From Nitrosophilus labii (GTDB lineage: Bacteria > Campylobacterota > Campylobacteria > Campylobacterales > Nitratiruptoraceae), in assembly GCF_014466985.1 (NCBI RefSeq), contig NZ_AP022826.1, positions 1,302,001 through 1,366,000 on the forward strand: a stretch of 64,000 nucleotides of DNA. Reading direction: 5' to 3'. The position numbers and the translations under genes are program-made. Shown here in pieces: positions 932-48,854 of this stretch (position 1 is its first letter; every line of letters begins with the position of its first letter). The notes beneath the pieces were generated by a model that was not told where the DNA came from, did no database searches, and worked only from the letters and a program-made list of their open reading frames with translations.

Positions 932-3008
932 TAACCTCAACCTTACCTAAAATATTCAGTTTGGTATTAGGTTCTATCTCAGAATAAGATATAACCGCAA
1001 CATTACTTAAATATGGCTCTATTATCTTCTTTACAAATCTTCTAACACTAGCGGAAGATATCAGTACCGGAGTAGACTGATGCAATACAAACTTCTCAAT
1101 ATACCCGGAAATCTGTTTAACAATTTCTTGCATAATAAACGGATCTAACGGCGGAATAGCACCTTCAAACTCTTTTATTTTTTCTAATATATAGTTTTCA
1201 AGTTTAGTACCCAACGTAATAGCGTACAATTTACCCTCTTTTGCGTACAAAGAGGTAATCAATCTAGATAAAGATTGTCTTACCAATTCAGTTAAAATAT
1301 CTGGATCGGTAGTTTTGTTGACGTTATCAGATAACGACTCTATAATGGATAAAAGATCCTTTATAGGTATATTTTCTCTTAATAGATTTTGTAAAACTCT
1401 ATGAAGTATTGAGTATGAAACCTGTTCAGGTACTATCTCTTTTACAATAGGATATTTTTTCGCCAGTGCTTCGACTAACTCTTTTGTTTCGCTTCTTCCT
1501 AAAATCTCATATGCATGAGACTTTATAGTTTCCGAAATATGTGTAATAACAACCGTAGGAATATCGACAACGGTATATCCTAACATTTTGGCTTTGTCTT
1601 TTAGATTCTCATTTATCCAATACGCTTTAAGACCGAAGGTAGGTTCTTTTGTCTCCTTGCCCCCTATAGGACCTTTTGTAGAACCTGTATCGATAGCTAA
1701 AACTTTTCCGGTTTCAACTTCGCCTTTTGTGATTTCCACATCTTTTATCAAGATCCTATATCCTCCTGGCTTTAACTCCAAATTATCTTTAATATGGATA
1801 AGCGGAATTATGAGTCCAAGTTCTTTGCTTAACTGTTTTCTTAACGACTTTATTCTTTTAATTATCTCTCCATTTTGATTTTCATCCACAAAAGGTATCA
1901 AAGAGTAACCAATCTCTAAAGTTATAGTTTCAGGCTGAGAAATAAGATCTTCAGGAGCTTCTGTTTCCTTTGCCTCTTTTATAATCTCTTGAGCTTTCTT
2001 TTCTGCCTCTATCTTTTCTCTGTTTTGCATATCTAACTGCATCATATACCCCACTAAAGCGATCATAATCGCTAAAATCAAAAAAGGCAGAAAAGGCATC
2101 CCTGGTACGACTCCCATAGCAACTAAAGCAAAAGAGGCCATAAAAAGAGCTTTAGGATAACTAACAAGTTGAGTAAAAATCTCTTTCCCGAGATTTGCTT
2201 GTGATACGGCTCTTGTCACCATCAATCCCGCTGCAGTTGAAGTAATAAGCGCGGGAATTTGACTTACCAGCCCATCTCCCACTGTCAAAAGAGTAAAATT
2301 TGCAGCTGCCGTTGCAACATCCATTTTATGTTGTAAAACCCCTATTGCGATACCACCGACTATGTTTATTATAGTTATAATGATACCGGCAATGGCATCT
2401 CCTCTTATAAATTTACTAGCTCCATCCATAGCCCCGTAAAAATCCGCCTCTTTTGCGATTTCTTCTCTTCTTTTTTTAGCCTCTTGTTCGTCGATGATAC
2501 CGGCATTTAGATCGGCATCTATAGCCATCTGCTTCCCGGGCATCGCATCTAGTGTAAATCTTGCGCCTACTTCCGAAATTCTTTCGGTTCCTTTTGTAAT
2601 AACGATAAAGTTGATAGTAACTAAAACTATGAAAACAATTATTCCTACCACATAGTTGCCTCCTACAACAAACTGACCAAAACTCTCAATAACCTTCCCG
2701 GCTGCGTCTGGACCTTCGTGGCCGTGTAGAAGTATGGTTCTTGTCGTTGCAACATTCAAAGAGAGCCTAAAAAGGGTTGCCAAAAGCAATAAAGATGGAA
2801 ACGAAGATATCTGTAAAGGATTTCCTATATATACTGTAGTCATTAAAATAATCAAAGATAAAGTTATACTAGTAGTTAATAATATATCAAGTAAAAAAGT
2901 GGGTATTGGCAAAACCATTGAGGCTAAGATTGCCAAAATCAAAACTACTATGATAGCATCTGAATGTTCATGAACTTTATTGAAAAAAAGTGCTAAAGTA
3001 TCTGTCAT
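918..3008 (-). CDS. flhA: Flagellar type III export gate protein FlhA
   Basis: Inner-membrane component of the flagellar export apparatus; its cytosolic domain docks export chaperones and its membrane part couples export to the proton motive force. At 696 aa it has normal length. The N-terminal half holds about eight hydrophobic segments with the conserved FHIPEP-family stretch (ATRTILLHGHEGPDAAG near residue 90 and the cytoplasmic loop with ISEVGARFTLDAMPGKQMAID near residue 145). The C-terminal soluble domain begins near residue 330. It sits between the rod-binding protein gene and flhF in one minus-strand run. No unusual residue was noticed. Confidence 0.97.
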   Translation of the reverse strand: MTDTLALFFNKVHEHSDAIIVVLILAILASMVLPIPTFLLDILLTTSITLSLIILMTTVYIGNPLQISSFPSLLLLATLFRLSLNVATTRTILLHGHEGPDAAGKVIESFGQFVVGGNYVVGIIVFIVLVTINFIVITKGTERISEVGARFTLDAMPGKQMAIDADLNAGIIDEQEAKKRREEIAKEADFYGAMDGASKFIRGDAIAGIIITIINIVGGIAIGVLQHKMDVATAAANFTLLTVGDGLVSQIPALITSTAAGLMVTRAVSQANLGKEIFTQLVSYPKALFMASFALVAMGVVPGMPFLPFLILAIMIALVGYMMQLDMQNREKIEAEKKAQEIIKEAKETEAPEDLISQPETITLEIGYSLIPFVDENQNGEIIKRIKSLRKQLSKELGLIIPLIHIKDNLELKPGGYRILIKDVEITKGEVETGKVLAIDTGSTKGPIGGKETKEPTFGLKAYWINENLKDKAKMLGYTVVDIPTVVITHISETIKSHAYEILGRSETKELVEALAKKYPIVKEIVPEQVSYSILHRVLQNLLRENIPIKDLLSIIESLSDNVNKTTDPDILTELVRQSLSRLITSLYAKEGKLYAITLGTKLENYILEKIKEFEGAIPPLDPFIMQEIVKQISGYIEKFVLHQSTPVLISSASVRRFVKKIIEPYLSNVAVISYSEIEPNTKLNILGKVEVNENK

Positions 3009-3019
3009 AATCCCTCTAA

Positions 3020-3304
3020 TTATTTACTGTTTTTTTCATATGCTTTTATAGCATTTAAAAAATACTCTTTTATTCCTAGTTTGTCACTATCGCTGATAGC
3101 TTTTGCCATCTGCATATCAAACATATCAAGATACATTTTCGATGAAAAAGATGAACTTAGCATACCTTTTTCCATCCCTTTTCTAACCTCTTTTAGAAAG
3201 ATATGCACAAATTCCGTTTCAAAAGCCTTTGCAGCTTCATCAATACTTTTTATATTTGAGATATTTTTAACATCCCAATATGTTTTTATATCCGTTTTTA
3301 TCAT
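3020..3304 (-). CDS. flgJ: FlgJ-type rod-binding protein (N-terminal domain only)
   Basis: Small 94-aa protein matching the rod-binding domain of FlgJ (ETEFVHIFLKEVRKGM, then a YLDMFDMQMAKAIS segment). It would cap or scaffold rod assembly in the periplasm. It lacks the C-terminal muramidase domain of enterobacterial FlgJ, as is usual in Campylobacterota, so another hydrolase must open the peptidoglycan. It lies between flgI and flhA, 11 nt from flhA. No signal peptide is visible, which fits export through the flagellar apparatus. The symbol is by domain and context. Confidence 0.82.
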   Translation of the reverse strand: MIKTDIKTYWDVKNISNIKSIDEAAKAFETEFVHIFLKEVRKGMEKGMLSSSFSSKMYLDMFDMQMAKAISDSDKLGIKEYFLNAIKAYEKNSK

Positions 3305-30960: not shown

Positions 30961-31426
30961 TTTTTTTAGTATATATCTTTTGTGTAATCTATCTTTAGTC
31001 TAACTGTAGAAGATCGTTCATAATTCCGTATCAGCACCAAATAGTTCTTAAAATTGTATCATAACTCAAGAGCACTTTCTAATCTTCCTTCAAAGAATAT
31101 AGCCAGCTGTGAAAGTATCAGTTACCAGTTTTTGATTGGCATTGTCCATTTTTTCTGAGCATTCTGTATTCCCATATAGAGCAACTTTAATAGTGAATTT
31201 TCATTTGGGAATACTCCTTTTGTTTTTGTCAGTTTTCTGAATTGCCGATGTACCGATTCGATGATGTTTGTGGTGTAAATGATCTTTCGTATAGGTTCTG
31301 GATATTTGAAATAGTTTGATAGATTCTCCCACTTATTTTTCCAGGAGTTGATGACGATGAGATATTTTTTGCCCCATTTCTCTTCAAGTCTTTCAAGCTG
31401 TTCCTCGGCTGCCTCTTTTATCCTCA

Positions 31427-31458
31427 CTTCGTTGCGGGGTTGTCGCTTCGCTCGGACG
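31427..31458. repeat. GC-rich short repeat, copy 1 (inverted relative to copy 2)
   Basis: GC-rich stretch inside otherwise AT-rich DNA containing GCGGGGTTGTC and GCTCGGACG. It interrupts the IS256 transposase between the IYQAIS and EEQLERLEEKW segments and shifts the frame. Its reverse complement recurs at 31680-31710 with a few differences. Confidence 0.65.
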
Positions 31459-31902: not shown

Positions 31903-34900
31903 ATTTCAATACATCATATGTATCGGTTGAACTTCACCGCTTGGCTCGATATCAAAGCTTATTTAAAATTTCAATACATCATATGTATCGGTTGAACGTT
32001 TTGCTATGTTGCTTATAATAGAGCCGTCTCTTTATTTCAATACATCATATGTATCGGTTGAACGTCTATATTTACAACCTCTTTGCCGTCTATCTCTTCC
32101 ATTTCAATACATCATATGTATCGGTTGAACTGAACCTGAACTGATACTAAAAGGCAGTTTTAAAAAATTTCAATACATCATATGTATCGGTTGAACTTTA
32201 CGACGAGGTCTTGAAAGCCAATATCCATATAGCATTTCAATACATCATATGTATCGGTTGAACTTTAGCGTAGGGTTACAGTCTATATATTCACTTAATA
32301 TTTCAATACATCATATGTATCGGTTGAACCAATTAAAAGAGGCGATATAAAAGAGTTTGTGGATAATTTCAATACATCATATGTATCGGTTGAACAAATT
32401 CGCTCTTCCATCACCTGCCCTTTTCTATTTTATTTCAATACATCATATGTATCGGTTGAACCATATCAATTAAGGCTATCTTGATATTTTCAGGCATATT
32501 TCAATACATCATATGTATCGGTTGAACGAGCCGTAAGCGGCATTTGATAAGGATGTCATTCCGATTTCAATACATCATATGTATCGGTTGAACTTTCATA
32601 AAACGACAAGCGTGTAGGTTGTTTTTGTAAATTTCAATACATCATATGTATCGGTTGAACTTGTTACAATTCCACCTTCTGCATAAGGGGTTATTATTTC
32701 AATACATCATATGTATCGGTTGAACAATTTCATAAAAAAGCAAAAAAAGAGTAAAAATGGAATTTCAATACATCATATGTATCGGTTGAACTATGTTGGA
32801 GGCTATCCATATTGATAACAAGATCAAATTTCAATACATCATATGTATCGGTTGAACATTGGGTAATTTCACTTTGCAATTGTGCATCAAGCATTTCAAT
32901 ACATCATATGTATCGGTTGAACTTGGAAGCTTTAAATAATTTTGATGAAGATATATTATTTCAATACATCATATGTATCGGTTGAACCCAAGTTTTTTCC
33001 TGCTTGCAATAGACAATCCAAGCATTTCAATACATCATATGTATCGGTTGAACCTCTTTGGAGTTTAGAAACTTTAGCACAGGACCTGAATTTCAATACA
33101 TCATATGTATCGGTTGAACATAATAAACTATTTTAATAACTCAAATAATTTTAATTATTTCAATACATCATATGTATCGGTTGAACATTAAAGATGTCCA
33201 GTCATTATTACCTAAAATCAAATTTCAATACATCATATGTATCGGTTGAACACTATACATAGAGAGTTTCTAACTTTTTTTAAAGAATTTCAATACATCA
33301 TATGTATCGGTTGAACATAGAAAGTTTGCCATTGCTTACCCTTTCCACATCTATTTCAATACATCATATGTATCGGTTGAACGTTTCTTAAGTCCACCAA
33401 TACTTGCGCCATATCGACATTTCAATACATCATATGTATCGGTTGAACAAACCTATTCCGATAGTTTTACTGCTGTAAAGACGGATTTCAATACATCATA
33501 TGTATCGGTTGAACGTAACAAGCAGTACTCCACCAGATAATTATAAAGTATTTCAATACATCATATGTATCGGTTGAACCGTTGGAGACACTCTTGATAA
33601 GCTGTTTACTTCAGAATTTCAATACATCATATGTATCGGTTGAACAGTTTTCTTTTTTTCTTTTGTTTTTGTGTAGATGTATTTCAATACATCATATGTA
33701 TCGGTTGAACCCAAAATTACCTGAAGCTCTCCAGCCTATATAAAACATTTCAATACATCATATGTATCGGTTGAACGGTAACCCTGTCCAAGAAGTAGAG
33801 CCAGGTGTGTTATTTCAATACATCATATGTATCGGTTGAACCAGCTTAACAAGTTTAACTGTTTTAGGGATTTATGAATTTCAATACATCATATGTATCG
33901 GTTGAACATTAAACGGTGCGCCGTTGCTTTTCAACCATAACCGATTTCAATACATCATATGTATCGGTTGAACGAGTCAGACGATACAACCAATCAACAT
34001 TTTACAAATATTTCAATACATCATATGTATCGGTTGAACGCACAAACCTCAAAAGAGAAACTTCACCCCAGCATCATTTCAATACATCATATGTATCGGT
34101 TGAACTATCACCCCATGCAGCAGCCGGTCATTATTAAAAGTATTTCAATACATCATATGTATCGGTTGAACTTTCTACCACCCCGATAACTTCATCACGG
34201 TTATGGTATTTCAATACATCATATGTATCGGTTGAACATTGAGTGGTTAATTGCCAAAGGCTTTATGAAGGTATTTCAATACATCATATGTATCGGTTGA
34301 ACGAGCCTATTGCAGAGGCTAATCCAGCCGTAACGCTATTTCAATACATCATATGTATCGGTTGAACTTTGGCACAAATGATCATCGTCAAGTGCCATTA
34401 TGCCCATTTCAATACATCATATGTATCGGTTGAACCTAAGAATACTTAATCCTAATTACAAGAAAATAGCATTTCAATACATCATATGTATCGGTTGAAC
34501 CCGTACTCTCCGAATTGTTCGGTGGCTAACATAATTATTTCAATACATCATATGTATCGGTTGAACTATAGAGATGAAAATAAAAGGCGGGACCATAAGC
34601 AAATTTCAATACATCATATGTATCGGTTGAACCTAAATACCAATGTGAAAAGTGCGGTAGCTTATGGAGATTTCAATACATCATATGTATCGGTTGAACG
34701 AGGGGATAGCTTCTAATTAGAGATTAGAAGTTACCTATTTCAATACATCATATGTATCGGTTGAACTGTATCGGTGGGATATACGATACATGAAATGGTT
34801 ATATTTCAATACATCATATGTATCGGTTGAACCAAATAACACATATTTTTAGACTAACAAGAGACCCATTTCAATACATCATATGTATCGGTTGAACTGA

Positions 34901-36612
34901 ACTGGGCAAAGTTTGTCAAACCGCCTAAAAAAAATTTCAATACATCATATGTATCGGTTGAACTTTCTATATCGCAAGTTATAGGAGCTTCGGTAGGAAA
35001 TTTCAATACATCATATGTATCGGTTGAACAAGTATCTTTATAAAGACTACATAAAGGATTGGCTAATTTCAATACATCATATGTATCGGTTGAACAAGCA
35101 GAATTTAAAGGCGTTGCTGGTTTTTGGTTAAAATTTCAATACATCATATGTATCGGTTGAACAGAATCACAACACAAAAGACCGCCTGCGTTTAAACCAT
35201 TTCAATACATCATATGTATCGGTTGAACCAGATTTAATTGTTGGTATGTGGGGCGGACTTGATCATTTCAATACATCATATGTATCGGTTGAACACAAAG
35301 CTGCTATAAATGGCGCTGGTGCAAACGGATTTCAATACATCATATGTATCGGTTGAACTCAAATATTTTATAGAAGATAGCGAAAAAATACCATATTTCA
35401 ATACATCATATGTATCGGTTGAACACTAAAAGCAAGAAGAGAATCTATCGAGTTTGAATAATTTCAATACATCATATGTATCGGTTGAACTTATGGATAG
35501 CTGGTATAGTAGTGGATATTCTGCTGAATTTCAATACATCATATGTATCGGTTGAACGCAATTGTTCAAGTTGTAGGCGAAAAACTTAAACATATTTCAA
35601 TACATCATATGTATCGGTTGAACTAATGGGCGGCGATATAGACACAACCTATATCACAAATTTCAATACATCATATGTATCGGTTGAACGGAGATAATTA
35701 TAGATATATGTATTTGTATGTAAAATTTCAATACATCATATGTATCGGTTGAACTTAAAAAAACCAGCGCTGTAACATCTATAATCGCTCATTTCAATAC
35801 ATCATATGTATCGGTTGAACGTGCAGACAAGCATATTTAAATATCTAAATGACGGAATTTCAATACATCATATGTATCGGTTGAACAGTTACTGATAAAG
35901 CAGCTTCGCAAGTCAAAAAACTATTTCAATACATCATATGTATCGGTTGAACAAAAAGGCAAGCAAGAAAAAAAACAGGAGCAAAAGAATTTCAATACAT
36001 CATATGTATCGGTTGAACACCATAGCGCTATGTAACCAGGGCACGCCTCTTGTTATTTCAATACATCATATGTATCGGTTGAACCCGTTGATTTTACAAA
36101 CGATACTTACATAGAAACATATTTCAATACATCATATGTATCGGTTGAACAGAATGCTGTCTGAATGTTTGCAAGGCGACAGCGAACATTTCAATACATC
36201 ATATGTATCGGTTGAACACGCAAAGATAGTCATAAGAGCCAAAACGGACGAGGATTTCAATACATCATATGTATCGGTTGAACGATAAAATCTGTGTGCT
36301 GTCTTGCTAAACACATCTATTTCAATACATCATATGTATCGGTTGAACCTTGCACCCCTGCTTCTTCCATCTTTGCCTGAATGAATTTCAATACATCATA
36401 TGTATCGGTTGAACGATTTTCGATACTGCTGTTCCAGTCGCTGTTTTGTTATTTCAATACATCATATGTATCGGTTGAACGCAGAAGCAAGAAAAGCCGA
36501 AAGAGAAAGAGTTAGAATTTCAATACATCATATGTATCGGTTGAACATCAACAATTGTTAATATAGGCGAATAATCAAGGATATTTCAATACATCATATG
36601 TATCGGTTGAAC
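31903..36612 (-). CRISPR. CRISPR array, 72 repeats and 71 spacers
   Basis: A 30-bp repeat recurs 72 times from 31903 to 36583 (starts counted one by one), every 64-68 bp, so spacers are 34-38 nt. On the plus strand it starts ATTTCAATACATC and ends ATGTATCGGTTGAAC. The inner ATACAT-CAT-ATGTAT forms a 6-bp hairpin. Read on the minus strand the repeat ends in ATTGAAAT, the usual type I-B 5' tag, so the array is transcribed like the cas genes with its leader at 36613-36788. The newest spacers are expected near 36550 and the oldest near 31950. No changed repeat was noticed, even at the distal end. Confidence 0.99.
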
Positions 36613-36788: not shown

Positions 36789-38082
<1,294 letters not shown>

Positions 38083-38086
<4 letters not shown>

Positions 38087-38622
38087 TCACCATCTCCACC
38101 AAAAATAAACCATCCAAGTCCAAAACCTGCTAGAAAACTAAGTAATGTCGTATCTGTATTATGTAGCTTTTCTCTTAACTCATCTATCTCTTTAGATATA
38201 TCTAACTCAAGCTGTAAACTTCCCTCGCCCCCTTTTAAAACAATATTTTCAAGCTTGATCAAAAATATGTCGATCTGATTAAGGATTTTGGCAACGATTT
38301 TTTTATAGATTTTTAATACCTCATCATAAGGCTCATATTTTTTCAAACTTTTATAGACACCTTTAAGTTTCTTAACTTCTTGCATAAATTCTTGCAATAC
38401 CTGCTCAATCTCACCAAGAATCTCTTTATCACTGTTATAGGTTTGCATAAATTTTCCAGCAAATTTAGTATTTATAAAATCTTTAATACCTGATAAAATC
38501 TTCTCAAAGTCCATACTTAGTTGCACATAATCTATGTAGTAGTAGCTCTCATAATCACTCAAATCCGCAATCTTTACTCTATACTCTTCAATGAGCTCTG
38601 CCAACTCTATGAAATCATCCAT
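38083..38622 (-). CDS. Coiled-coil protein with C-terminal membrane anchor, inside the cas operon
   Basis: 179 aa, no family recognised. Residues 1-155 are acidic and helical with heptad-like Leu/Ile spacing (EIEQVLQEFMQEVKKLKGVYKSL; ISKEIDELREKLH). Residues about 158-175 form one hydrophobic segment (LLSFLAGFGLGWFIF) with a Gly-rich face, followed by GGDGE. This is a tail-anchor layout with the body in the cytosol. It starts 12 bp after cas4 and ends in an ATGA overlap with cas1, so it is translated with the adaptation genes. It may tether or scaffold the Cas4-Cas1-Cas2 complex at the membrane; that is inference. Confidence 0.75.
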
Positions 38623-38634
38623 TTTAAACCTCTT

Positions 38635-39123
38635 CTAAACGAAACAATACTCATAATAAGCACACTTTTTACACTTTTTATTAAACTCGGGCTTCGGAGG
38701 CGAAGACTTTGCTATAAGCTTTTCTAGATTGTTTATAACTTCAAGGAGCTTTGCTTCGCTCTTTTCGTTCAAAATCACTTCAAAGCGCTTTTTTTCCTGC
38801 CTACTTTTCTCAAAAATCTCCAATCGTCCCTTTTTGACAATCCCCTTTTGCTTGAGTTTATAGAGATAGTAGAGCAATTGCCACTTTGCAGCTTCTAAGT
38901 CGCTATCGCTCTTTTTTACCTCGATAACATAATCTTTTGTTATTTTGTCAAGTTTTATACTTTCAAAACTAACCTCATCGACTCTTGTTTCATTGATCTC
39001 GTGTAAAACTTTTCCGATTCTTACATCTTCGCTATTGTCTTCAAGGTTTATGCGATTTGCGTGAAGCCAGGCTTGCGTCTTGCAGTGAAAGTAGTAGTTA
39101 ATGAGAGTACCGGTGATGTTCAT
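38635..39123 (-). CDS. cas4: CRISPR adaptation nuclease Cas4
   Basis: 162-aa RecB-family exonuclease that trims prespacers and reads the PAM. Four cysteines for a 4Fe-4S cluster: Cys14, then Cys151, Cys154 and Cys160. Nuclease residues His41 (GKVLHEI), Asp59, Glu68-x-Lys70 (VIEVKKS) and Gln82 (KWQLLYYLY) are intact. The ATG overlaps the toxin gene stop by 4 nt, so its translation is coupled to the toxin-antitoxin pair. Confidence 0.95.
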   Translation of the reverse strand: MNITGTLINYYFHCKTQAWLHANRINLEDNSEDVRIGKVLHEINETRVDEVSFESIKLDKITKDYVIEVKKSDSDLEAAKWQLLYYLYKLKQKGIVKKGRLEIFEKSRQEKKRFEVILNEKSEAKLLEVINNLEKLIAKSSPPKPEFNKKCKKCAYYEYCFV

Positions 39124-39506
39124 GGTCTAAAAACTAAAATATCAAGATCATTTAAAAATTTATAGTGTTTATCATTTGCCGCAACAAGTGTTAGTCCATG
39201 TTTGGTACATGTAGCACCTATGAGGCTATCTGCCAACTCCAATGAATGGCTCAAAAAATACTCTTCCATATAATGTGTAGCCTTTGCTGAAATCTCCTCA
39301 TCTATATAGACCACTTTGATATTCCAAGAAGTGATCATCTTTTGAAACTGCTTCAATTCATGCTTGTTTCGCATATCTTGCAAAAGCTCCATATATGTCA
39401 CACAAGAGATAGCAAAATCGATTTTATGAAGCATTTCTCTAGCATTTTCATTTCCACGAAAATACCATATCATTACATCCGTATCAACAAGATAATCATA
39501 TATCAA
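39120..39506 (-). CDS. PIN-domain toxin (VapC-like) inside the cas operon
   Basis: 128-aa PIN ribonuclease. The acidic site is complete: Asp8 (LVDTDVMIW), Glu40 (VTYMELLQ), Asp93 (LELADSLIGATC) and Asp112 (AANDKHY). It pairs with the upstream antitoxin gene, overlapping it by 11 nt. Its stop overlaps cas4 by 4 nt. VapC-type toxins usually cut tRNA or rRNA. Here it could act as an addiction module for the locus or as a fail-safe if the operon is damaged; the context supports but does not prove this. Confidence 0.88.
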   Translation of the reverse strand: MIYDYLVDTDVMIWYFRGNENAREMLHKIDFAISCVTYMELLQDMRNKHELKQFQKMITSWNIKVVYIDEEISAKATHYMEEYFLSHSLELADSLIGATCTKHGLTLVAANDKHYKFLNDLDILVFRP

Positions 39507-39726
39507 ATCTTCTACCTTTTCTCATCTTTCGTACTATCTCATTTACCTCTTCACTCTGATCACGCCACATTCCAAATGCAATATCCTCTTTCTTTTTTTG
39601 CTTATTGAGGCCTATCAACTTCGCTTTAGCTTTACCTCTGTAGGTAATGATAATATCCTCTCCTTTACTTAAAACGTCAAAAATCTCCGCGGTATTAAAT
39701 CGTAAATCTTTCGCTGTTATTTCCAT
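39496..39726 (-). CDS. Phd/YefM-type antitoxin
   Basis: 76 aa. The N-terminal Phd/YefM fold is clear (EITAKDLRFNTAEIFDVLSKGEDIIITYRGKAKAKLI), which binds operator DNA. The C-terminal half (about 45-76) is Lys/Arg/Glu-rich and would wrap the PIN toxin. A GGAGA ribosome-binding site precedes the ATG, unlike most genes in this operon, and a separate promoter with palindromic operator lies just upstream (39739-39780). It is 57 bp downstream of cas3. Confidence 0.88.
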   Translation of the reverse strand: MEITAKDLRFNTAEIFDVLSKGEDIIITYRGKAKAKLIGLNKQKKKEDIAFGMWRDQSEEVNEIVRKMRKGRRFDI

Positions 39727-39783: not shown

Positions 39784-42105
39784 TCACAAGAAGCCAAACT
39801 TTTTATTTTGTTCTTCCATAAACTTATCTCTATCAAACTTATAATCCTCATCGATATACTCCTCAAAATCAGCAAAAAGATATATCCCGCAGCACTCATC
39901 ACTGAATCTATCGAGCTTTTTGACAAATGGAAGATTAAAAGTAAAAAACTGCATATAAAACCAAAGCTTCGATTTTTCTATCTCCTTTTGCGCGTAATTT
40001 TCTATAGCGCTTAGTTCTTTGAGTCTTTGCCAGATCATCTCACCATCCAAATAGCCATCCTCGATATACTCTCTTTCAAAATATCCTCTAAACTCCTCAT
40101 CAATCTTTAAGCGATATGGGAAAAAGATTGTAATACCACTTGAGCGAATGAGTTGCATTTTCTCATAAATCTCTTTATACTCCAATCTTTGCAAGAGTTT
40201 TATAAATTTATCTTTTATAGTTTGCAGCCCGCTATATTTGTTCTTTTTCTCATCAAGTCTTTTAAGCACCACTTCATAACATTTGCCAAAATCTTTTTGC
40301 AAAAAATAGTCTCTAACTTCTTTATTTTGCAAATTTACATCGAGTCTATTGTCTCCTCTATAGATATCTTCAGTTTTGTCATAATTGAAAAAATAGGCTC
40401 TGCCTTTTCTAAGAGCATTTCTATTTATCCTGCCCAAAAACTGTTCATCGCTATCAAAAGTAGATATATCTTTTAGCCCCAGTTCCATATCGATATCCAC
40501 ACCAGCCTCTATCACTTGCGTGGCTACGATGACGATTTTTTCAGCCATCCTTGTACGCTCAATGACCTTTTGTCGAAAGAGTTTATTGTCATCACCGCTT
40601 AGCTCATATACCTCATAGCCATCCAAATCTTTGATATACTCATAAAACTCTCTCGCGCTTCTTTTTTTGATAAACTCCACCAAAACCTTGTTGGCTTCTA
40701 AAACTTTTTCTTTAAGTATCTCAAAATCGATTTTACGATCAAGCAGAGAAAAATCTACTTCCACTCTATCTTTAAAAAGAGGATGTATGAAGTATTTACG
40801 GCTATCAAGCAGCTCTACAAACTCATCTTTTTTCTCAAGAAGTCTATCGATTTTTGGCAGTGTAGCGCTCATTATGATGATCTTGAGATCCAAAACCTTC
40901 GCATAGGCGTTTAAAAACTCCACCATATACCACCAAAGGTTGTTGTCATAACTTTGGATCTCATCGAGGATAATTACGCTTCCATAGAGCTGCCAAAGTG
41001 GAAAGTTCGCCTCTTTGCCTATGCCAAAGAGTATCTCAAAGAGATTGACGTGCGTCGTCAAAATCAGCTCATAATGATAAAAGAGGCGCTGTAGATAGGT
41101 TTTTTCATAGAGATTAGGATCATTCTCTTCATCCAAAGCAATAGGAGTAATAGAGTTGATAACCGCAAAATCAAGAGAACTAAAAATCTCTTCTATCTTC
41201 TCTTTTGTCTGCTCTACTAAAGTATTAAACGGGAAAATATAAAAGATCTTTTTTGGCTCAAGTTTTAGAGCGAGATTGAGTGACATAAGAGTTTTACCTG
41301 CCCCTGTAGGCGCTTGGAGATAAAATATGTTTTTGGATTTATCGAGACTCTTTTGGGACTCCAAAAACATCAGGCTTCTTAGCTTATCGATCTCTTTTTC
41401 ATAGTCTCCTGCTCTGATGTTTCGCACGATCGCAAAATCTTCAAACTCCTCTTTGGCTTTTTTTATATCAAGGAGGCCGAAACTCTCCGTTTTAATATCC
41501 GTCATATACTCCAATGTAGCGTAATAATCGGCACTAATAAGCAGCGAATAGATAAGCTTAATAGCTATGAAAGTCTCGATATCAAAGTAGGAAAAATCAA
41601 GCTCAAACTCTACATACGCACTTCCCTCTTCTTGAAGTTTGCTTTTTAGCTTTTGCACAAACTTTTCAAAATCATCGAGCTTTGCGTGGTGCTTTGATAT
41701 GATGAAGCAAAGAGTCGTAAGCAAAAAAAGCTTTTTGTAAAACTCCTCATCCTCCACCTCGCTTGCCACCTCATCTATATATTTTTCAAAAAACATCTTC
41801 GCACCCAAAAACGAGTGTTTGGAACTCTTTACATCCATCTTTTCATAGGCTTCTTTAAAATCTTTGTTTCCCATCTTTAGATACTGAAAAGCGGGATTTC
41901 TCTTCCCCTCATCATGGGAGACAATAGCATCAAAAATGAGCTTTTTAGCAAACTCCCTATCTTGCAGTTTGAAACTTTCGATGATTTTTTCTAAATCTAT
42001 CTCTTTTTCTTGGAAGATTTTTTGGAGGTATTTTTTGACTAAGGCTTTGTGCTCTTCAAGCTTTTCTGGTGGTTTGGTTGGGTGGGTGTGGGAGAGGATA
42101 TTCAT
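39784..42105 (-). CDS. cas3: CRISPR helicase-nuclease Cas3
   Basis: Target-degrading enzyme of the type I effector. N-terminal HD nuclease with SHDEGKRNPAFQ (His64, Asp65), His97 and His139-His140. Superfamily 2 helicase with QAPTGAGKT (about 264-272), DEIQ box (VIILDEIQSYD), SATLP and the C-terminal QFLGRINR motif. I start at the ATG 42103-42105 rather than an in-frame ATG at 42138: it forms an ATGA overlap with the reverse transcriptase stop and gives 773 aa beginning just before the HD domain (MNILSHTHPTKPPEKLEEH). HD and helicase are fused in one chain. Confidence 0.95.
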   Translation of the reverse strand: MNILSHTHPTKPPEKLEEHKALVKKYLQKIFQEKEIDLEKIIESFKLQDREFAKKLIFDAIVSHDEGKRNPAFQYLKMGNKDFKEAYEKMDVKSSKHSFLGAKMFFEKYIDEVASEVEDEEFYKKLFLLTTLCFIISKHHAKLDDFEKFVQKLKSKLQEEGSAYVEFELDFSYFDIETFIAIKLIYSLLISADYYATLEYMTDIKTESFGLLDIKKAKEEFEDFAIVRNIRAGDYEKEIDKLRSLMFLESQKSLDKSKNIFYLQAPTGAGKTLMSLNLALKLEPKKIFYIFPFNTLVEQTKEKIEEIFSSLDFAVINSITPIALDEENDPNLYEKTYLQRLFYHYELILTTHVNLFEILFGIGKEANFPLWQLYGSVIILDEIQSYDNNLWWYMVEFLNAYAKVLDLKIIIMSATLPKIDRLLEKKDEFVELLDSRKYFIHPLFKDRVEVDFSLLDRKIDFEILKEKVLEANKVLVEFIKKRSAREFYEYIKDLDGYEVYELSGDDNKLFRQKVIERTRMAEKIVIVATQVIEAGVDIDMELGLKDISTFDSDEQFLGRINRNALRKGRAYFFNYDKTEDIYRGDNRLDVNLQNKEVRDYFLQKDFGKCYEVVLKRLDEKKNKYSGLQTIKDKFIKLLQRLEYKEIYEKMQLIRSSGITIFFPYRLKIDEEFRGYFEREYIEDGYLDGEMIWQRLKELSAIENYAQKEIEKSKLWFYMQFFTFNLPFVKKLDRFSDECCGIYLFADFEEYIDEDYKFDRDKFMEEQNKKFGFL

Positions 42106-43901
42106 TTTTCTAATTTCATAATATGATAAAGATACCATTCATCAGAAATATAATTTTTTATTTTTTCAATTAATTGATCTTTATTCGGATTATTACTAAT
42201 CATTGCCATAAATATAAGAAACTTATAAAATGGGTATTGTTTTCCATTTTTATAAACTTCATTAAATAAATAAGAATTAATCTTTTTATCTAAAGATATT
42301 CTTAATATAAGATTTTTAATATTTTTTGCAACAAAAGCACTATTAGGAAATCCATTAGCTATTTGTTCTTCTAATAGATTATCTACATAATCCTTTTTGA
42401 AAAAATAAACTCTAGGTAAAGTAGCTATAACTTGCCTAGATAGAAAAGAATCTTTAATCCATATGTCTCTATTATTTTCTATTAAAGTTAATAATTCATT
42501 ATCTTCACCATATTTCCCATAAAACCATAAATTACAATAAAAACCAAATTTATTTGTTTGTTCATTAATATATCTTCCTTTGAGACTATTAATGAATATT
42601 TGCCCTTTATTATTGTTTGGTATTTTATAATCAACAAGAAACTTTGTTAATATAAATAATGTTAAATCATCATAAAACTCCACATTATGATATAGTGAAT
42701 ATATTGTATCTATTATCTTTTTCGTAAAATTAAAATTGCTTAAAAAATATAATATATGTTGTCGAAAATTAGGCCTACTAATAAAAAGCTCTTTGGCATA
42801 TTTTATAAAATTTTCCGCTTTAATTTTTCCTGCAATTGTAAAAAAACGTTTTGTAACTTTGTCCCAATTTTGGGAAGATACATTTTTTAAATGTTTTCTA
42901 AATAAAATATTAATTTGTTGTCTATCATTTTTCGTTAATGAATTATTTTTTATCTTTTTTTCTATTTCATTAATAAATAAATTTTCATCAACCAAAAAAT
43001 GATATTTAACTTCATCTTGAGAATAAATATTTGTTTTTGCTAAATTAAGTGCCAAACCTCTACTTTTTAAAATATCATTCATACTACCTAAAAATTTTTT
43101 AGCCTCCATTTTATCATTACATCCAATATTTATATCATCCATCCATCGCACAAAATTATCATTTGCATCTTTTTTTAAATACTCATCTAATTCAAAAAGC
43201 ATAATATGTGCCAAAAAACGAATAGCTTCTAAATTAATAGTAGGTAATCCTTTATAAGAATATGGAAGATAATCGGGTTTCCAAGAAAGTTCTTCAATCA
43301 TTTTAAATAATAAATCTAGAATAACTTCTTCTACTCTAACATATCCTGACACAATATGACGCAATTCTTTCAATCCAATGTTATCAAAATAATTTGTTAC
43401 ATCCGTTACAACAAGATATGGATAAGTTTCAGAAAATTTAAAAATCTGTTTTTGAAAACTCTTCCATTTTTCTCTCCATGTGTAATCAGATGTATCATGT
43501 TGGTGTGGTAATTTTAAATCATGTCTATCTCTTGAAAAAAAAGCTTTTTTACTTGGCTGTTCTAATCCTTGTTCAATTATATAATCAATTAAAACTTGAA
43601 AAACTAATGCATCTTTAGGAGTTGGAATCATTAAATGCCGACAAATTCCAAATTTTTTCTCTAATTTATATATTAAAGGTTTATCAGTTTGAAATCTTCC
43701 TTCAATAATTTCATATTTTATATGTTCAGCAATTGTTTCAATGTTATAATTAAAATCATAGTAATCATGGATATCATTAATATCTAAACTTCGCATTTGT
43801 TTTTTTACTATTTTTCTCCAAGTATCAATAAGCCTTTTCTTAGTAAAGACTTTTTCTAAAACTTTTTTTCTTTGTAATTCAAATCTTTTTGTTATATTCA
43901 T
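42102..43901 (-). CDS. Reverse transcriptase embedded in the type I-B cas operon
   Basis: 599 aa. The RT core occupies about residues 60-300: motif 2/3 area MIPTPKDALVFQVLIDYIIE, motif A VVTDVTNYFDNI with Asp167 and Asp173, motif B-like KGLPTINLEAIRFLAHIMLF, and motif C FVRWMDDINIG with Asp255-Asp256 (WMDD instead of YADD). Residues 300-599 are helical without maturase, integrase or Cas1 domains, like the helical extensions of Abi/DRT-type RTs. The ATG overlaps the cas5 stop by 4 nt and the stop overlaps cas3 by 4 nt. The gene looks more AT-rich than cas3. RTs known with CRISPR are mostly tied to cas1 in type III, so this placement is unusual. Confidence 0.93.
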   Translation of the reverse strand: MNITKRFELQRKKVLEKVFTKKRLIDTWRKIVKKQMRSLDINDIHDYYDFNYNIETIAEHIKYEIIEGRFQTDKPLIYKLEKKFGICRHLMIPTPKDALVFQVLIDYIIEQGLEQPSKKAFFSRDRHDLKLPHQHDTSDYTWREKWKSFQKQIFKFSETYPYLVVTDVTNYFDNIGLKELRHIVSGYVRVEEVILDLLFKMIEELSWKPDYLPYSYKGLPTINLEAIRFLAHIMLFELDEYLKKDANDNFVRWMDDINIGCNDKMEAKKFLGSMNDILKSRGLALNLAKTNIYSQDEVKYHFLVDENLFINEIEKKIKNNSLTKNDRQQINILFRKHLKNVSSQNWDKVTKRFFTIAGKIKAENFIKYAKELFISRPNFRQHILYFLSNFNFTKKIIDTIYSLYHNVEFYDDLTLFILTKFLVDYKIPNNNKGQIFINSLKGRYINEQTNKFGFYCNLWFYGKYGEDNELLTLIENNRDIWIKDSFLSRQVIATLPRVYFFKKDYVDNLLEEQIANGFPNSAFVAKNIKNLILRISLDKKINSYLFNEVYKNGKQYPFYKFLIFMAMISNNPNKDQLIEKIKNYISDEWYLYHIMKLEK

Positions 43902-44608
43902 ATTATAAAGATTACCCCTTTCCCCTCATACTCAAAAAACTTTTCACTTCTCCCCTCAACAACCCAACTACTCAAAATCATCTTTTCATATTCATATATC
44001 AAAAACTTATCTTTAAGCCTTACAGGCAGATACTCTTCATAAAAGAAGTTTGCACCAAATCGTGGGGCTTTTTTTAAAACCAAATCATCTTTTTTTGCTA
44101 AAGAGATGCAAACTAAACCGGTCGTTGCCTCTTTTAGCTCTATTTCTTTAACTTCATCGATATTTGCAAAGTGGTCATTTTTTCCAAGATATGGCACATA
44201 GGCAAACTCTTTTTTAAAAAGTCTCTCTTTTAGCTCCCTAAACTCATCACTCTCATTATCCAAAACCAATATCTCCCAAGCGGGATTTTCAAGCCACTGC
44301 TCTCTCACGATCAGATTGCCGCCTTGCTCCTCACTTGCATAGCCTACAGAGTTATTAAAAGTGACGATCTTTTTGGTAAAGTATGGCTTTTGAGGGATGA
44401 TAGAGACTTTGAACTCTTTTAGTTTTTCATAAAACTCCGGTAAATCTCCCTTGCTATTTCCATATCCTTTAAGTCCCAAAATAGAGCCTAAAATACCTAA
44501 TAGCGCCACTTTATGGATATGAGAATAGGTGAAATAGGTATGGCTATTGACATCAGGCTTTTTGAAGTGTGCGAATCTACCGCTTAAATTAAAACTAATT
44601 GCTTTCAT
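43898..44608 (-). CDS. cas5: Cascade subunit Cas5 (type I-B)
   Basis: 236-aa RAMP-fold protein that binds the crRNA 5' tag in the effector. The N-terminus KAISFNLSGRFAHFKKPDVNSHTYFTYSHIHKVALLGILGSILGL matches the Cas5 Hmari/I-B form, with the aromatic-rich loop and the following Gly-rich helix. Its ATG lies 14 nt inside the DUF1016 nuclease gene, and its stop overlaps the reverse transcriptase start by 4 nt. Confidence 0.93.
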   Translation of the reverse strand: MKAISFNLSGRFAHFKKPDVNSHTYFTYSHIHKVALLGILGSILGLKGYGNSKGDLPEFYEKLKEFKVSIIPQKPYFTKKIVTFNNSVGYASEEQGGNLIVREQWLENPAWEILVLDNESDEFRELKERLFKKEFAYVPYLGKNDHFANIDEVKEIELKEATTGLVCISLAKKDDLVLKKAPRFGANFFYEEYLPVRLKDKFLIYEYEKMILSSWVVEGRSEKFFEYEGKGVIFII

Positions 44609-45626
44609 TTTTTGCCTCTATTTTTTGCAACTGGCTTTCTATCTCTTCAATTGATGGCAAAGTATTTTTTAGCTCTTTTGGAAGCTCTTTAAAAAGTTTA
44701 TATTCACTAACTCCTATTGGTTTTTCTATACTGTTTAAAGCATACTCTACAATGGTATTATTTTTTGATTTACAAATGAGTATGCCTATAGTTGGATTGT
44801 CATCATCGCTTTTTATCTCTTTATCAACTGCTGTTATGTAAAAGTTTAATTTTCCTGCATATTCAGGCTTAAACTTTGTAGTTTTTAACTCAATCACTAC
44901 AAAACACTTTATTAGTTTTATGTGATAAAAAAGCAAATCTATAAAAAACTCCTCTCCTGCAATTTCTAGCCTGTATTGTCTGCCTACAAAAGCAAAACCG
45001 CTACCAAGTTCTAAAAGAAAATTGGTTAGATGATCCATCAAAGCATTTTCAAGCTCTTTTTCATTATATTTTTCATTCAAACTTAAAAAATCAAAACAAT
45101 ACGGATCTTTTGTAATCTCTTTTGCCAAATCGGACTGAGGAGCAGGTAGCTTTTTGTCAAAATTGTTTATTGCTTTTTTGCTTCTACTGTATAAATCACT
45201 TTCTATTTGATGCACTAAAACTGCTCTTGAGTATCCATTTTCAATAGTTTTTTTTACATAAAAGAGTGCTTCTTCAATAGTTTTACACTTTGTAATTATT
45301 ACAATATTATGACCCCAAGGTATCTGAAAAATTTGGGCAACAACTTGTTGCCCTTTTACCCAGAACAAATACCATTGCTTCATATACTTTAAGTTTCTAA
45401 CTGAAAACCCCTTTAAATTTGGAAACTCTTGCTTTAAATCTCTACTTATTTGCTCAATTATCCCATCACCCCAAGAAGAGCTTTTTTGTTTATCTACAAT
45501 CATTTTTGCAATATCCCAATAAAGCCGTAAAAGTTCCTCATTTACTTTTATAGCTGCTTTAATTTGAGCTTGTCTGATCTTGATTTTTATATCACTAATA
45601 AATGATATATACTCTTTATCTAACAT
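44595..45626 (-). CDS. DUF1016 / PDDEXK nuclease-like protein between cas7 and cas5
   Basis: 343 aa, YhcG family. The N-terminal DUF1016 domain (KAAIKVNEELLRLYWDIAKMI, then SWGDGIIEQISRDLKQEFP and FSVRNLKYMKQWYLFW) precedes a PDDEXK nuclease domain with Asp230 (FFIDLLFYH) and Glu246-x-Lys248 (VVIELKTTKFKPEYAG). The catalytic triad is intact. Such proteins occur as solitary genes near restriction systems and mobile elements. Here the gene starts 9 bp after cas7 and overlaps cas5 by 14 nt, so it splits the Cascade genes yet stays in the operon. It may be a prespacer or target nuclease, or a passenger. Confidence 0.88.
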   Translation of the reverse strand: MLDKEYISFISDIKIKIRQAQIKAAIKVNEELLRLYWDIAKMIVDKQKSSSWGDGIIEQISRDLKQEFPNLKGFSVRNLKYMKQWYLFWVKGQQVVAQIFQIPWGHNIVIITKCKTIEEALFYVKKTIENGYSRAVLVHQIESDLYSRSKKAINNFDKKLPAPQSDLAKEITKDPYCFDFLSLNEKYNEKELENALMDHLTNFLLELGSGFAFVGRQYRLEIAGEEFFIDLLFYHIKLIKCFVVIELKTTKFKPEYAGKLNFYITAVDKEIKSDDDNPTIGILICKSKNNTIVEYALNSIEKPIGVSEYKLFKELPKELKNTLPSIEEIESQLQKIEAKNESN

Positions 45627-45635
45627 CTTTTAGCC

Positions 45636-48140
<2,505 letters not shown>

Positions 48141-48148
<8 letters not shown>

Positions 48149-48854
48149 CCCTCGCCCTTACTACCATTCCAAAACCTAAAGGATTTTTCTCTAATATTCC
48201 TACACCGAAACTAAGTCTTGCCAATTTTTGACTAACTTCATCACTATTAAAACCGATTTGAAATCTATTGGCAAAGATCTTTCCGCCTTTATAGTTAAAA
48301 ACTAGCGGCTTTTGGTTCACTACCTTAAAAAAGCCGACCATATCACTAGGGGCTTTTACGCTTTTTTTAAAAAACTCGATATACTTCTTTTCAAGGTTAT
48401 CCACAATTCGTTTTTGAAGTAAAAGCGGGTCATCCTCAATAGTCCAGTATCTAATCTTTCCATTTTGATCCGTTATGGTTAAAACAGCCGGGGTGATTGT
48501 ATATATTTTATCGATATAGCTTAGTTTTAACTCTCTAGATTTAAAACCTTCAATATCAAAATCAAGATTTGTAGTTTTTTTAGAAGCTTTATAAAACTCG
48601 CCAACTACCGCCTCTTCTATAGTTCTAAGCGTTAGAGTGTAGATAGCATCTTGTTTATAAACTTTCTCTTTTTTATTTACCGGATATAAACTACCTACAA
48701 CGTAAGGTTTAAAACCTCTCTTTTCGTGTAGGGCTCTTAATATAGTGGAGTTGTAAAATATATAATTTACATTTTTAGAAACAAAGTTTATATAATCTTT
48801 AAAGGGGAGATCTTTTTTCAGGCGAATTTTTATTTTCAGCTCATGTATTTGCAT
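48141..48854 (-). CDS. cas6: Pre-crRNA endonuclease Cas6
   Basis: 237-aa processing nuclease and first gene of the cas operon. The C-terminal Gly-rich loop SFGVGILEKNPLGFGMV is the family hallmark. A candidate catalytic His44 is in RALHEKRG. It should cut at the base of the 6-bp repeat hairpin, leaving the ATTGAAAT 5' tag. The ATG is preceded by a weak ribosome-binding site. The 177 bp upstream are AT-rich and have no clear consensus promoter. Confidence 0.92.

Follow-up and report, generated by a model that had tools for sequence, protein, structure and literature searches.

Does an unrecognised gene between cas4 and cas1 of a type I-B CRISPR operon belong to the adaptation machinery, or is it an accessory that has settled there? 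The question is raised by gene X (38083..38622, minus strand) of Nitrosophilus labii, which encodes a 179-aa predicted helical bundle with a hydrophobic Gly-rich C-terminal tail and lies in a stretch of 64,000 nucleotides that was analysed as a whole, hereafter the window. X starts with an ATG codon with AAGAGG upstream, 12 bp after the end of cas4 at 38635, and its stop codon overlaps the start of cas1 by the 4 nt of ATGA; these coordinates confirmed the placement given in a preliminary description of the locus. The gene is present in a single copy in the genome and is considered to be real because full-length homologues exist and dN/dS among four close copies is 0.17–0.29.

The host operon is of type I-B and is encoded on the minus strand. 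It opens with cas6b (48141..48854; PADLOC Cas6b, 201 bits), cas8b (46514..48148; PADLOC Cas8b, 402 bits), and cas7b (45636..46517; PADLOC Cas7b, 122 bits), followed by a YhcG/DUF1016 PD-(D/E)XK protein as cargo between cas7 and cas5 (44595..45626; PADLOC PDC-S02), cas5b (43898..44608; TIGR02592, 157 bits), a group UG13a reverse transcriptase as cargo between cas5 and cas3 (42102..43901; PADLOC RT_UG13a, 688 bits), and cas3 (39784..42138; TIGR01587, 128 bits). A toxin-antitoxin-like pair then separates cas3 from cas4, consisting of a Phd/YefM-like gene (39496-39726; PF02604, 5.6e-07, just under the cut-off) and a PIN gene (39120-39506; PF01850, 5e-14). The adaptation half comprises cas4 (38635..39123; PF01930, 1.9e-48), X, cas1 (37091..38086; PF01867, 1.4e-76), which is the sole cas1 found in the genome, and cas2 (36789..37094; PF09827, 1.7e-18). 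The operon is followed by a CRISPR array (31903..36612) whose 72 identical 30-nt repeats, free of mismatches, and 71 distinct spacers suggest recent activity. RT_UG13a is a defence-type reverse transcriptase inside a type I-B operon and overlaps cas5 and cas3 on either side; a literature search on UG13 and on Nitratiruptor CRISPR returned nothing relevant. Just past the array, an open reading frame at 31122-31427 (minus strand) is, judging from its translation, presumably an IS256-like transposase fragment.

X had been called an unrecognised protein with a helical, acidic body, and both statements hold: the protein carries a net charge of -12, is helical in its AlphaFold2 model, and falls into no Pfam, NCBIfam or PADLOC family. 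PADLOC gave no match at all, and the matches in NCBIfam and Pfam were sub-threshold, none of them to a Cas protein. Several such candidates were rejected as driven by composition, including Pfam DUF5617 and RAQPRD (sub-threshold and not common to homologues), NCBIfam VirB4 (5.6e-4; 18 bits, with the cut-off at 643 bits; not common to homologues), and phrog_21576 (6e-4; sub-threshold and not common to homologues). The AlphaFold2 model of X, built on a shallow alignment of 7 sequences, is a four-helix bundle of moderate confidence (pLDDT 71.6, pTM 0.67), with four packed helices of 18-35 residues each, and a homologue (locus L015) used as the query gave the same architecture (pLDDT 76.0, pTM 0.76). 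For what was earlier termed a coiled coil, predicted four-helix bundle (pLDDT 72-76, pTM 0.67-0.76) is the better name. The most conserved block, KLEN..L..GG (residues 123-138; 38209..38256, minus strand), lies where predicted helix 4 ends, and K123, L124, E125, N126, L129 and G132 are invariant across all eight homologues. The top PDB sequence matches of X were designed helical proteins. Talin rod domains ranked first in the fold search, as they do with many helix bundles, and Foldseek of the X models against PDB and BFVD gave no match with E < 0.1.

The C-terminal tail (residues about 154-179; 38086..38163, minus strand) is kept in all full-length cas-linked copies of X and is a borderline membrane segment, predicted at low confidence in the AlphaFold2 models. 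In X it reads TTLLSFLAGFGLGWFIF, with a mean Kyte-Doolittle value of 1.67 over 17 residues, and the 17-residue means across X tails range from 1.45 to 1.82. On the usual 19-residue window, for which the membrane-span cut-off is 1.6, the best value of X is 1.45, and the other full-length cas-linked homologues reach 1.22-1.54. Wimley-White octanol values favour insertion of the tail (-8.9 to -11.4), three homologues carry a Glu inside it, and the tails of the non-cas homologues are weaker as membrane segments. The single membrane segment proposed earlier therefore stands as a conserved hydrophobic tail favoured by the octanol scale, and is called into question by the 19-residue Kyte-Doolittle values below 1.6 and by the Glu residues. 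With a tail that is short and borderline though conserved, tail anchoring of X in the membrane is a plausible reading of the sequence. ElaB, YqjD and YgaM are tail-anchored inner-membrane proteins, and they share with X a helical body and a short Gly-rich hydrophobic C-terminal tail. X differs from them in its genomic setting and in having no Pfam or NCBIfam family match.

The distribution of the family is narrow. About 85,000 species genomes (GTDB 220) were scanned with short peptide patterns, a method liable to miss divergent copies, and yielded six loci, all from Campylobacterota: five cas-linked (L014, L015, L016, L017 and L018) and one non-cas (L019). A search of the phylum added another non-cas homologue (L013), and a profile search placed the family in 3 of 392 sampled Campylobacterota genomes after the exclusion of three short matches with internal stops. 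No relatives were found in plasmids, phages or viral contigs. Matches of 62 residues in one genus (L025-L028) were spurious, with stops inside, and those at L005-L010 were too short and were left out of the homologue count. In all six cas-linked loci, namely the window and the five homologues of at least 40% identity, X lies directly 3' of cas4. Close homologues therefore always adjoin cas4, and the eight known loci divide into six directly after cas4 and two distant non-cas ones (about 22-36% identical), rather than lying mostly away from cas genes. The two non-cas proteins share 36-39% identity with one another and about 22-34% with cas-linked X. One sits between dapF and rarA (L013). The other (L019) is followed by what, from the translations, we take to be a penicillin-binding protein gene (pbp), and is preceded by genes read in the same way as methylase, TcmP-like and Gp37/68-like; neither has a cas gene within the stretch examined. 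Among the cas-linked copies, the one in L018 is truncated, with unrelated sequence taking over beyond about residue 158, and a Nitratiruptor MAG (L014:7420-9825) carries cas4-X-cas1-cas2 with no effector genes within the stretch examined. In this MAG, X is open, and cas4 and cas1 are frameshifted, possibly through assembly errors.

The linkage to cas4 outlasts exchange of the effector genes. Among L015, L016 and L017, identity is 91-95% for cas4 and 89-92% for X, but only 27-36% for Cas3, so that, judged from these identities, three effector modules are joined to one cas4-X unit. In the set of close copies, the dN/dS of X exceeds that of cas4 (0.07-0.12), which indicates purifying selection on X that is looser than on cas4. 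On the Cas1 tree, one change accounts for the three X-bearing rows, and on the Cas4 tree, two are needed for the five X-bearing rows, in an unresolved region of the tree; a single gain of X is possible on these trees. The gene was rightly flagged, given its genuine linkage to cas4 and the selection acting on it. Linkage of this kind cannot separate cargo from a partner, because any gene between cas4 and cas1 travels with them.

The junction itself was surveyed in the 30 top-ranking cas4 loci from the sampled genomes of the phylum. In 24 of them cas1 follows cas4 directly, at 6-62 nt and without X; X is present in two, the window and L036 (L036 and L015 being one locus); and three carry other genes at the junction, which are RhuM-Fic (L035), Bro-N (L055), and a pair (L034:186-1434, minus strand) made up of an 88-aa membrane protein and a 331-aa protein without a family match. 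A standard component of type I adaptation would be present in most cas4-cas1-cas2 modules, and X is not. RhuM also lies between X and cas1 in L015, follows X up to the contig end in L017, and has its start visible at the end of L016. X resembles RhuM-Fic, Bro-N, YhcG and toxin-antitoxin cargo as an optional gene at cas junctions in the same group of loci, but lies outside all these families. Because different genes occupy the same junction, the junction takes up varied cargo, of which X is one kind. Several neighbouring arrangements were observed in addition. Bro-N-like genes recur as cargo next to cas4, before it in L043, L051 and L053 and after it in L055 (only the last was tested with Pfam); a YhcG-like gene lies between cas3 and cas4 in L017 as well; and in L058 (reverse complement 2005-3214), the one remaining locus of the 30, what read as type III-B cmr genes come after a type I-like cas4, in the place of cas1.

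Considering that X is optional, that its junction is shared by other cargo and that its distant homologues are non-cas, X is best explained as a new, lineage-restricted accessory at a cargo site, with a function of its own that is possibly membrane-associated, and not as a subunit needed by Cas1-Cas2-Cas4; we give this reading a probability of about one half. The extra cargo at other junctions of the same operon (YhcG, RT_UG13a and PIN/Phd) counts in its favour. Contrarily, all close homologues lie at cas4 loci and none is solo, as a specific partner would also look, and X overlaps cas1 directly in the window and in L014. As an accessory, X would have entered the cas4-cas1 junction, perhaps in a single event, in one lineage of the Campylobacterota type I adaptation cassette, would be co-translated with both genes, and would be inherited with them whenever the cassette joins new effector modules. 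The protein would have a cytoplasmic body, folded into an acidic four-helix bundle, and a Gly-rich tail on or in the inner membrane, where it would perform an accessory or defence-related function under the cas promoter.

Another explanation is that X is a membrane tether, whose helical body binds Cas4 and/or Cas1 and whose tail keeps the adaptation complex at the inner membrane, the entry point of phage DNA. The strict position after cas4 with the overlap into cas1, the survival of the cas4-X pair through effector exchange, and a tail conserved in cas-linked copies and favoured by the octanol scale all fit a tether, as does the 88-aa protein of L034, which sits at the same junction and has a tail matching those of cas-linked X. 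However, most sister cas4-cas1 modules do without X, RhuM splits X from cas1 in L015 and follows X in L017 as far as the contig runs, and the tail makes a short, borderline membrane segment. Moreover, the divergence of X far outpaces that of its supposed partners (44% identity between the window and L015, compared with 74% for Cas4 and 84% for Cas1). A tether is hence unlikely, and the general role of holding Cas1-Cas2-Cas4 at the membrane, put forward in the preliminary description, was not sustained in view of the 24 of 30 loci without X, the unrelated junction cargo, the non-cas homologues and the borderline segment.

An alternative function by analogy is that of a membrane-acting immunity effector, which might oligomerise through the Gly-rich tail and disturb the inner membrane during infection. 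Such a role would suit the small size and helical character of X, the GxGxG pattern of its hydrophobic tail and the many putative defence genes carried as cargo in its cas operon, and precedents exist in Csx28, a membrane pore in type VI-B (PMC12669027), and in Cam1, a pore-forming-type accessory in type III (PMC10808066). Csx28 and X are alike, by analogy only, as small CRISPR accessories with possible action at the membrane, but they belong to different CRISPR types and show no sequence or fold match. In addition, no sensor domain such as CARF was found in X with Pfam, PADLOC or NCBIfam, the X models have no fold match, and the non-cas homologues lie in ordinary gene contexts. Type I systems are not known to make the cyclic messengers that drive Cam1. 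An effector role is accordingly quite unlikely.

The 88-aa protein of L034, which comes from another genus, deserves separate consideration, as it ends in SGLLAGILIGLGIGWIIGSDDE. Compared with the tails of cas-linked X (window, L014 and L015), this end scored above all 910 other C-termini of the loci examined and outscored 2000 shuffled versions of its own sequence; with the tails of the two non-cas homologues as reference it did not clearly stand out. A matching tail on a second protein at the cas4-cas1 junction hints at a site-specific role. The likeness is a lead and not a result, because it concerns one protein, involves Gly-rich hydrophobic segments, and was tested after being noticed. 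Searches of plasmids, viral contigs and three other genomes gave no convincing copy of the 88-aa protein. It is very doubtful that X and the 88-aa protein, unrelated as they are, represent a recurring inner-membrane docking element for type I adaptation complexes, formed by proteins with GLGxGW-like tails encoded at the cas4-cas1 junction. We know of no membrane-docking component of CRISPR adaptation.

It is highly improbable that X is a near-neutral or selfish passenger without a defence role, kept because its loss would disturb cas1 translation: its narrow and sporadic distribution, fast evolution and truncated copy in L018 would suit a passenger, but X is under purifying selection (dN/dS 0.17-0.29), the KLEN block and the tail are conserved at about 42% identity, and X is open in L014 despite the frameshifts in cas4 and cas1, possible assembly errors.

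Uncharacterised, partly membrane-bound genes linked to CRISPR are already known as a kind and are many (PMC6967390), and gene-neighbourhood surveys have reported accessory membrane proteins of this sort, as cited in later papers (Shmakov et al. 2018, via PMC6967390 and PMC12737573). The surveyed proteins are like X in being uncharacterised, possibly membrane-associated, and located inside cas operons; their well-studied members come from effector modules of type III or VI, whereas X lies within a type I adaptation module, between cas4 and cas1, in a narrow lineage. The literature search found no description of X or of a membrane accessory between cas4 and cas1, and an earlier listing in neighbourhood surveys is possible. 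X is a new example, in an unusual place, of a known kind of CRISPR-linked gene.

These results present the cas4-cas1 junction of Campylobacterota as a cargo site for varied accessory genes, and the adaptation half brings X along when the effector half is swapped. As an unannotated family with few relatives that is tied to the genes of spacer acquisition, X lends itself to a direct test of any effect on adaptation. Should its tail prove to serve in docking, this would bear on the cellular site at which new spacers are captured.
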